Source: Isoetes taiwanensis (lineage: Eukaryota > Streptophyta > Lycopodiopsida > Isoetales > Isoetaceae). Taken from it: a DNA stretch of 64,000 nucleotides. The stretch covers positions 6,912,432 through 6,976,431 of the forward strand of contig JAJEKV010000062.1 of assembly GCA_021234155.1 (NCBI GenBank), given 5' to 3'. Shown one piece after another: positions 15,156 through 16,919 of the stretch. The translations under genes were made by a program, and so were the position numbers. Each line of letters starts with the position of its first letter. Position 1 is the stretch's first letter. Below the pieces are notes generated by a model. The model was given only the letters and a program-made list of their open reading frames with translations, was not told the DNA's origin and did not search any database.

Positions 15156-16919
15156 TATATATATACAATTATTTGATGGGTCCTATGGGGGGTTGAATGT
15201 GGGTAGAGATTAATCCTATCCGTCTAATTTTTGAGGTGGCACTTAAATGGCCCTTGGATTTGATGGGGGGCATGCATGGGCCATGCATGGGCCATGCACC
15301 CCATCCATGAACCGTTGATCGGGCACGTGTGAAATCTTGGCCCTTGATTTTTTTAAAGGGAAGATGCAAGGAAGGTCCCTTAAAAGGTGCTTTTTGGTGC
15401 GATCAATCTTAACCGTTGGATCAAAAGGGGAGGAAAAATCCTAACCATTAAATTTTTTTGTTAAATTGCAATTTCTTTATTAAAAAGAGGTGAGGTGGCA
15501 CCCTTATTTAATAAAAAGGTAATGAGGTGGCACCAACATTAATAGATGGACTTTCTAGGAAGCTTCTTTTTTTATAATCAGCTTCAAAGGCCGATAACTT
15601 GCAGTAGAGGGGTCGGATGAAGGTGAGACCCACACCATTGGATTCCTCTCGTCGAGAACTTCCCAATGAGTGGTGCTTTGGCATCGTTCCCTCGCAGTTG
15701 GAGCTAATGTGATCGAATACTAAGTTTCTTTTTAGAAACTTGGAATTTTACTGAAATCTATCTTGAATTTAAAAGAATCTAGGGGGAATCTCCATAGGAT
15801 TTTTAGGGAATTTAAAGGAAGCTCAAGAGAATCTTTGGGAATCTATGAGAATCGCAAGGGAATCTTTGAGATTCTATAGGAATCTTTATAAAACCTTTGA
15901 GAATGTAGAAGAATCTTCATAGAATCTAAGGGAATCTAGGAGAATCTACATAGAAATATGGGAAATCTAGAGGAATCTTGAGATGATCTTTAGGAGGCTA
16001 GAGGAACCCCAACAAAATTAGGGGAATTTATGGGAATCTCAAGAGAATCATAGAGAATCTAGTAGGATCAAGTGCATCTTCATAAAATCTTTGAGAATCC
16101 TTGAAAATCTATAGAATCTAAGGGAATCTATATAGAATCTAACAAAATTTAGGAGAATCCACATAGAATTTTGGAGACTCTAGAGGTTTCTTGTGATAAG
16201 TTCGAAAATCTAGAGGGATCTTTATAGAATCTTAAGAATCTAGGGGAAGCTTTGTGGAATCTTAAGGAATCTTTCATTAATAAGTGTGTTTAGTAGGGGA
16301 ATCTCGATAGAATCTAAGAGAATCTATATAGAATCTTGGAAAATGCGGGATAATCTTTGAGAATCTAGTTGAATCTTAAGAGAATCTTAATTAACTTATG
16401 GGATTAAGAGTATTTAAGGGAATCTTCCTTAAATCTTTGAGAATCTAGGATACTTTTTTCTGAATCTTCAAGAATCTAAGTGAATCTTTATAGAATCTTC
16501 ATTGAATGGCTCGAGAATCTGGCTTTTGAAATCTAAAGCTAAAATCTTTGAGAATCTAGGGGGAATCTTGATGGAATTTTCAAGATTCTAGGGGAATCTC
16601 TATAGAATCTAACAAAATCTAGGAGAATCTACATAGAATTCTAAAATTTAGAGGATCCTTGTGATAACGTTTGAAATCTAGAGGAATCTTTGAGAATCCT
16701 AAGAATCTAAAAAAGGGAATCTTAGGGAATCTTTTACACTAAGTGTGTTTTTTCTAGGGAATCTTGATAGAACCTAAAGGAATCTAAGAGAATTTATATA
16801 GAATCTTAAGAAATGTAGAGAAAATTTGGGATAATCTTTGAGAATCTAGGGGAATCTTAAGAGAATCTTAAGTTTGGATGGCTCAAAATTTGTGTACTCC
16901 CTTATAGTACACTCACTTG
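15156..16919 (+). mobile_element. Large TA-bounded array element (family Y, copy 2, apparently full length)
   Basis: Left end TATATATACAATTATTTGAT; right end TTATAGTACACTCACTTGTATATA. The head (about 15176-15740) holds GCATGCATGGGCC repeats, TTAACCGTTGGATC, two GAGGTGGCACC motifs and GGATTCCTCTCGTCGAGAAC. The array of GAATCT cores spans about 15745-16870. A tail GGATGGCTCAAAATTTGTGTAC (reverse complement of the head of copies 5 and 6) then precedes the TA tract. About 1.76 kb, no coding capacity. This copy best shows both ends, which share TATATACAA then differ (TT versus GT). Confidence 0.85.

Follow-up and report, generated by a model that had tools for sequence, protein, structure and literature searches.

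The question raised by this locus is what kind of mobile element carries long rows of GAATCT cores through TA microsatellites, by what machinery it moves, and whether the regular spacing of the cores calls for an explanation of its own. The stretch analysed, hereafter the window, comprises 64,000 nt of Isoetes taiwanensis (GCA_021234155.1, contig JAJEKV010000062.1, positions 6,912,432-6,976,431, forward strand), and genome-wide counts refer to the whole assembly of 1.66 Gb in 1,110 contigs. The window contains 170 GAATCT and 202 AGATTC words, gathered in dense one-strand blocks, against a base-composition estimate of ~21 per strand. A sequence-only reading had proposed one family of TA-bounded mobile elements that have a head in common and carry a phased array, and the analysis bears this out, with six copies at about the places it gave. 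As for their extent, however, the 4691 copy lacks both ends, the 17045 copy lacks the 3' end, and the copy put at 27006 starts at 27043 (Table 1).

Table 1. Positions of the GAATCT copies, their parts, and the RepHel remains in the window, and of the 5' termini at four RepHel loci elsewhere in the genome
Position	Strand	Feature
4691..6095	+	Copy without either end; 96% identity to the 15156 copy
15156..16919	+	Very probably a non-autonomous Helitron; lacks the TC start at its 5' end, where it is fused to the CTTG end of a neighbour
15156..15740	+	Head of the 15156 copy
15774..16872	+	GAATCT array of the 15156 copy; 31-bp, three-core repeat
16892..16919	+	3' terminus GTGTACT-CCCTTAT-AGTACAC-TCACTTG: 7-bp hairpin, CTTG, then T
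16920..17044	none	(TA)62 microsatellite separating the 15156 and 17045 copies
17045..17945	-	Copy of the 34168-type subfamily without 3' end; orientation opposite to the 15156 copy
24160..26120	-	RPA-like exons, forming one degraded autonomous Helitron with the next row; REPA_OB_2 and Rep_fac-A_C in two ORFs
26247..27010	-	RepHel C-terminal part with Pif1 2B domain; broken off at the TA run next to the 27043 element
27043..28409	+	Third subfamily, complete copy: A/TCATAATAT to CACTTG/TATA
34168..36082	-	Copy whose 5' end has given way to the 3' end of another element, inverted
54258..56149	-	34168 subfamily; 96% identity to the 34168 copy
L059: 195		RepHel 5' terminus
L060: 3164		RepHel 5' terminus
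L062: 138		RepHel 5' terminus
L063: 1368		RepHel 5' terminus (reversed)

The arrays are not unrelated satellites, since the heads of the window copies match one another at 76-94%, and the ends and collinear arrays are common to the copies. Between subfamilies, the arrays of the 15156 and 34168 copies agree at 72.9% over 1,728 columns, and those of the 15156 and 27006 (third subfamily) copies at 71.5% over 1,320 columns. Because of this collinearity the arrays must be older than the subfamily split. Both 34168-subfamily copies also have ~482 bp of array directly duplicated (34289-35260, 97%; 54379-55347, 94%). Outside the window, the head of the 15156 copy has at least 41 genome matches (40 candidates scored of 2,819).

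For the ends, 20 genome copies of the 15156 family were fetched and lined up; they start with A/TCTCTTATATATATACAATTA and end with GTGTACTCCCTTATAGTACACTCACTTG/TATA (slashes mark element borders). The two ends are asymmetric, with A/TC...TATATATACAATTA at the 5' side and ...TCACTTG/T at the 3' side. The words TATATACAAGT and TATATACAATT, initially taken for the ends, have to be reassigned: TATATACAATT is an inner part of the 5' end that starts with A/TC, and TATATACAAGT is the 3' end (ACTTG/TATA) read on the other strand. Both borders are readable in 15 of the 20 copies (the unreadable ones are L010, L016, L017, L027, and L028), and these 15 include 14 copies of 1,718-1,786 bp and one of 789 bp. 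TC is preceded by A in 14 of the 15 and CTTG is followed by T in all 15, which is weak evidence, since the flanks are mostly TA runs and such letters are near-automatic inside them. The same TA repeats mask any target duplication of 8-11 bp in the bordered copies. The search for empty sites, meant to define ends and target duplication, yielded no clean one: in one search the left and right flanks matched different repeats, and in another the flank itself was duplicated.

Among 40 distinct 5' termini taken from the window and 50 loci, 25 show A/TC, 10 are fused to the CTTG of another element, and 5 show neither. The letters after A/TC vary (e.g., TCTCT, TCCT, TCTGT, TCTAT, TCACTC, and TCATAA). 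The CTTG-fused termini, that of the 15156 copy included, look like insertions into the 5' TATATATA of another element; the 15156 copy has no TC start because the CTTG end of another element abuts it. A transposon with terminal inverted repeats (TIRs) was considered when a left CAATT and a right CAAGT seemed to be inverted repeats, and was rejected, the CAAGT at left ends belonging to a neighbouring element's 3' end in inverted orientation. At the left ends of L018 and L019 the 5' terminus is iterated (TCTCTTA is repeated ahead of TATATATACAATT), so that an element start can multiply.

The 3' end is more uniform within the 15156 subfamily: its terminal 32-mer has 128 genome matches with up to 3 mismatches, all of the 100 listed being perfect, and the reversed control has 0. 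So many near-identical matches of the 3' end of one subfamily suggest recent movement. The last 28 bp of this subfamily form a 7-bp stem with a 7-nt loop that stops 7 nt short of the end (−4.8 kcal/mol, z −2.2, equalled in 5 of 200 shuffles). In the 34168-type end the stem is weaker, at 6 bp (z −0.8), and the same folding test gives no hairpin in the 27006-type ends or in the type-A 3' ends of neighbouring elements. These neighbours have other interiors and bear related 3' ends (...ATAGTACAANNACTTG/TATA), the type-A end having 888 genome matches (control 0). One end-pattern search omitted CACTTG ends, and the 55 ends it gave belong to other families. At 36144-36155 of the window two inverted type-A 3' ends join over a (TA) core (ACTTGTATATATATACAAGT) into a long palindrome.

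Canonical Helitrons terminate in CTRR. The array subfamilies seen end in CTTG and thus depart from the strict form. CTTG is counted here as a documented Helitron variant, since the parts available of two papers report a 3' CTTG followed by T for HELPO2, for maize Helitrons, and for de novo Helraiser ends (PMC4289320, PMC4778049). Those elements, however, belong to other organisms and have other sequences, with no GAATCT array in the passages concerned, and the accessible text of a further maize Helitron paper does not contain CTTG (PMC2267711).

It is highly improbable that the copies are instead non-autonomous Mutator-like elements (MULEs) aimed at TA microsatellites, of the SaTar, Micron, or MuTAnT type. 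The habitat is the same: according to the portions available, SaTar, Micron, and MuTAnT elements sit in (TA)n and form modular rows of unrelated elements within one microsatellite (PMC5907723, PMC4486113), and the GAATCT elements show both the microsatellite habit and such modular clusters. However, the former are classed as MULEs and have TIRs, which measure 40-250 bp in guayule SaTars, and some have target duplications of 9-10 bp (same portions of the same papers), whereas inverted repeats are absent here: in all three elements compared, of which one is a consensus, the first and last 150 bp match no better than shuffles. The asymmetric ends, with a 5' end common to RepHel elements, also speak against a MULE, and so do the 10 of 40 termini that are seemingly nested within another element, given that the same passages describe SaTars as never seen interrupted. 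Micron had been named as the nearest analogue; being a TIR element of the MULE group (PMC5907723, in part), it has to give way, for elements lacking inverted repeats, to Helitrons as the nearest kin.

Remains of a possible Helitron partner lie in the window itself. The ORF at 26247-27182 (minus strand) has a Pif1 2B domain (E 4.2e-6), with RepHel homology reaching 27010, where the TA run begins, and the RPA-like ORFs after it contain REPA_OB_2 (E 4.7e-11) and Rep_fac-A_C (E 2.8e-9). Genome-wide, Helitron_like_N (PF14214) has at least 150 matches over the cut-off (150 scored of 1,813 candidates), and the window helicase likewise at least 150 (150 scored of 2,478 candidates). Beside a GAATCT copy, L059 (3529-8235) holds an open RepHel frame of 1,569 aa, in which both Helitron_like_N and PIF1 are present, and L060 one of 1,494 aa with the same two domains. 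The homology of L059 to L061 ends with the stop codon of RepHel, whereas L061 and the copy in the window also have RPA-like sequence downstream in common.

Four RepHel loci were read upstream: L059, chosen for adjoining a GAATCT copy, and L060, L062, and L063, chosen by reading-frame length and likeness to the window helicase. All four have a terminus of the TC...TATATATAC type 2.3-3.9 kb before the RepHel coding region. Taken alone this is weak evidence, as 5' ends are common (8 in the 64-kb window) and L059 was picked beside a copy. The stronger point is that L060 and L062 are collinear from the terminus to the ORF and unmatched upstream of it, where L062 has only 137 bp. In addition, the 15156 consensus head with its terminus matches the 5' end of L062 at 83.9% identity over 224 columns (the first ~220 bp). 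The 3' end of the autonomous element was not found within 4.9 kb (L061) and 1.7 kb (L059) downstream of the ORF, and within the four RepHel elements the sequence read, starting at the terminus, contains no GAATCT array.

Two of the four loci (L059, by choice, and L063) adjoin a GAATCT copy at the 5' end. In L063 an array with 25 cores on one strand (3619-4272) lies beyond the RepHel 5' terminus and faces away from it, as in L059, an orientation that fits a head-to-head neighbour of the RepHel element; head-to-head pairing of non-autonomous and RepHel elements may be common. Elsewhere, 5' ends stand head to head around a few TA units (e.g., AATTGTATATATATAAGAGA-TATA-TCTCTTATATATATACAATT) in L009, L015, L018, L020, L022, and L025, and the paired ends often come from different families. 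In L019 one element is bordered on both sides by identical (100%) 630-bp direct repeats (1866-2495 and 4291-4920), an arrangement that a circle of the element and its 3' flank recombining back would give, as would other duplications.

The asymmetric TC/CTTG ends, which have a hairpin in one subfamily, the absence of inverted repeats, the RepHel-type 5' terminus, and the autonomous remains in the window support a Helitron. The GAATCT elements are thus very probably non-autonomous Helitrons, moved in trans by RepHel/RPA Helitrons of the same genome that have the same 5' terminus, and landing in TA repeats. Insertion would occur at the junction of A and T, chiefly within (TA)n, which would explain why several elements share one microsatellite. 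Movement by RepHel is the step we infer, as neither the autonomous 3' end nor a clean empty site was seen. If it holds, targeting of TA microsatellites and modular stacking, reported for MULEs, would extend to Helitrons.

Partial precedents for the body plan exist among rolling-circle elements. According to the sections available, DHH_Mothra of rice is a high-copy non-autonomous Helitron of ~2 kb that consists mainly of tandem-repeat blocs (PMC4683698), and it resembles the GAATCT elements in being a tandem-repeat non-autonomous plant Helitron with termini common to a larger element and RPA-coding relatives. In contrast to them, it ends in CTAG with a 16-bp hairpin, its units measure ~140-150 bp by division, with six per bloc, those sections describe no short-core array, and the word "microsatellite" does not occur in the text (PMC4683698). 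The DINE-1/HINE Helentrons are likewise non-autonomous rolling-circle elements, some copies being about half simple or tandem repeats; as far as the consulted part of the source goes, however, they are animal Helentrons with subterminal inverted repeats that insert at TT or T-rich DNA (PMC4067079). Judged by titles and the beginnings of abstracts, focused searches of open-licence papers brought up no Helitron with TA targeting or a motif array, and the combination of the two is probably new in Helitrons.

As for the array, the expected GAATCT autocorrelation is present: pair spacings in the window peak at 10/11 bp and then at 20/21, 31, 41/42, 51/52, 62, 72, 82/83, 93, 103, 113/114, and 124 bp, with few between the peaks. 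Genome-wide, 106,879 core triples fall within the searched gaps, overlapping ones counted (reversed-pattern control 3,319). By step, the triples number 8,899 (10-10), 8,082 (10-11), 8,763 (11-10), and 233 (11-11), with controls of 69, 5, 1, and 6, respectively. The mean step equals 10.3332 bp, and a step of 11 follows 10 in 47.6% of cases and 11 in 2.6%. These counts stand at about 1:1:1:0.03, while a 10-10-11 cycle predicts 1:1:1:0 and a mean of 31/3 = 10.3333. All three arrays compared match themselves best at a lag of 31, and in them spacers three steps apart are alike at 0.45, 0.41, and 0.56 and neighbouring spacers at 0.26-0.27, near random; spacers separated by two steps in the 27006 array (0.45) are as alike as those three apart (0.41). 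The best reading is that the array is a 31-bp repeat holding three GAATCT cores (10+10+11), and the 31-bp unit itself probably grew from a ~10-bp word. The minisatellite body was present before the subfamilies split.

Since the counts fit such a repeat, the phase can come from the minisatellite unit, and selection for one helix face is not needed. The phasing had been taken to suggest a protein scaffold, positioned nucleosomes, or a special substrate for transposition; what it fits is the 31-bp three-core repeat. The related claim that cores lie one B-DNA turn apart on one face holds locally, but a 10.333-bp step against 10.5 bp per turn shifts the face by ~6 degrees with each core and brings it once round the helix in ~60 cores. 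The near absence of 11-11 steps (window, 0 of 51; genome, 233 of 25,977) was dropped as a sign of phase-keeping, because a 10-10-11 repeat gives it. A role of the phase in positioning nucleosomes or curving the DNA is very improbable. The 10.33-bp step is indeed near the helical repeat; however, the 10.3-bp power of AA/TT is 3.9-7.7, compared with 22-51 for GAATCT and 29-50 for GG.

With odds slightly better than even, the array is neutral, a 31-bp minisatellite that would have arisen by replication slippage or unequal exchange within a non-coding Helitron and been copied along with it, the phase being a by-product. The genome-wide agreement with the 10-10-11 cycle is what such an origin predicts, and the mutations of recent copies point the same way. 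In the comparison of 16 recent copies (the fetched L010, L016, L017, L025, and L028 were left out by length), 1-bp indels make up 38 of 61 events in the array and 13 of 13 in the head. Shuffling the intervals of each copy nearly reproduces its long-range coherence (p 0.04-0.80 in 6 copies). Selection for phase inside single copies was ruled out on these two grounds, 1-bp indels being commonest and shuffles nearly as coherent. The repeat blocs of Mothra, too, are ascribed to slippage or unequal crossing-over in the sections available (PMC4683698). The phased array is striking, and its origin is probably ordinary.

What stands against neutrality is the core itself. In recent copies the core/spacer change ratio is 0.81 (89/4,926 vs 285/12,784), whereas between subfamilies the three pairs give lower ratios of 0.55, 0.61, and 0.41 (0.64, 0.56, and 0.38 at higher gap costs), with p from 0.031 to 1e-7 if sites are taken as independent. 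Because the core changes more slowly than the spacers between subfamilies, a binding role is the main live alternative: by analogy with VANC, a host or element protein might read the phased GAATCT words of a putative dense platform and keep source elements open or expressed. We hold this possible, at about one chance in three. The slower divergence is a hint of such a role, drawn from sequence comparison, and it should be read together with the facts that repeats, when aligned, tend to be paired core to core with gaps of whole units and that, of the three arrays compared, two represent single copies. Gap sizes give a mixed picture. At the higher gap cost the 15156/34168 pair has 6 gaps of 10-12 bp and 6 of 1-2 bp, where recent copies have 3 and 45, respectively (p 0.001, Fisher test); the other two pairs, however, have fewer unit-sized gaps (2 vs 5 and 1 vs 5).

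Orientation and composition also bear on binding. The cores point one way in all three arrays (49:2, 38:0, and 65:0). The 15156 consensus array has 8 CG and 4 CHG sites, where composition predicts ~28 of each, and two other arrays have 2 and 4, and 9 and 7; being poor in these sites, the arrays offer little to maintenance methylation. The slow core and the scarcity of CG and CHG would fit constraint on the core in source elements; the scarcity, however, follows partly from the letters of the unit, and the heads are low as well. VANDALs are themselves MULEs. Their VANC targets are a close parallel in pattern: in the parts available, VANC21 targets are dense motifs of one orientation (PMC5735166), and VANDALs show non-coding, short-motif arrays grown by tandem repeat (PMC5735166, PMC10398659). 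VANDALs, however, code the binding protein VANC, whereas no element-coded counterpart came to light here, and the words "spacing" and "helical" do not occur in the text of either paper. Among plant proteins, NIGT1 reads GAATC, but as a native dimer it needs inverted pairs (PMC7660924, accessible part), and these are scarce in one-strand arrays.

In a more specific form, doubtful and resting on analogy, this would be a Helitron lineage whose addressable, phased, CG- and CHG-poor GAATCT array recruits one sequence-specific protein. If so, a VANC-like system of anti-silencing or source activation would exist outside MULEs, in rolling-circle transposons. Helitrons are reported to have spread the sites of a transcription factor (PMC6914339, in part). 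The more than 100,000 core triples in one genome make a clean natural system in which to find out whether the motif arrays of transposons are bound and under selection or are simply products of slippage.

The neutral minisatellite reading finds a further parallel on contig C1, at 138.7-142.6 kb and 167-176 kb, where GAATCT clusters recur every ~0.91-0.93 kb, with one step of 0.78 kb. These repeats resemble satellite growth, as if a Helitron array had there been enlarged into a satellite.
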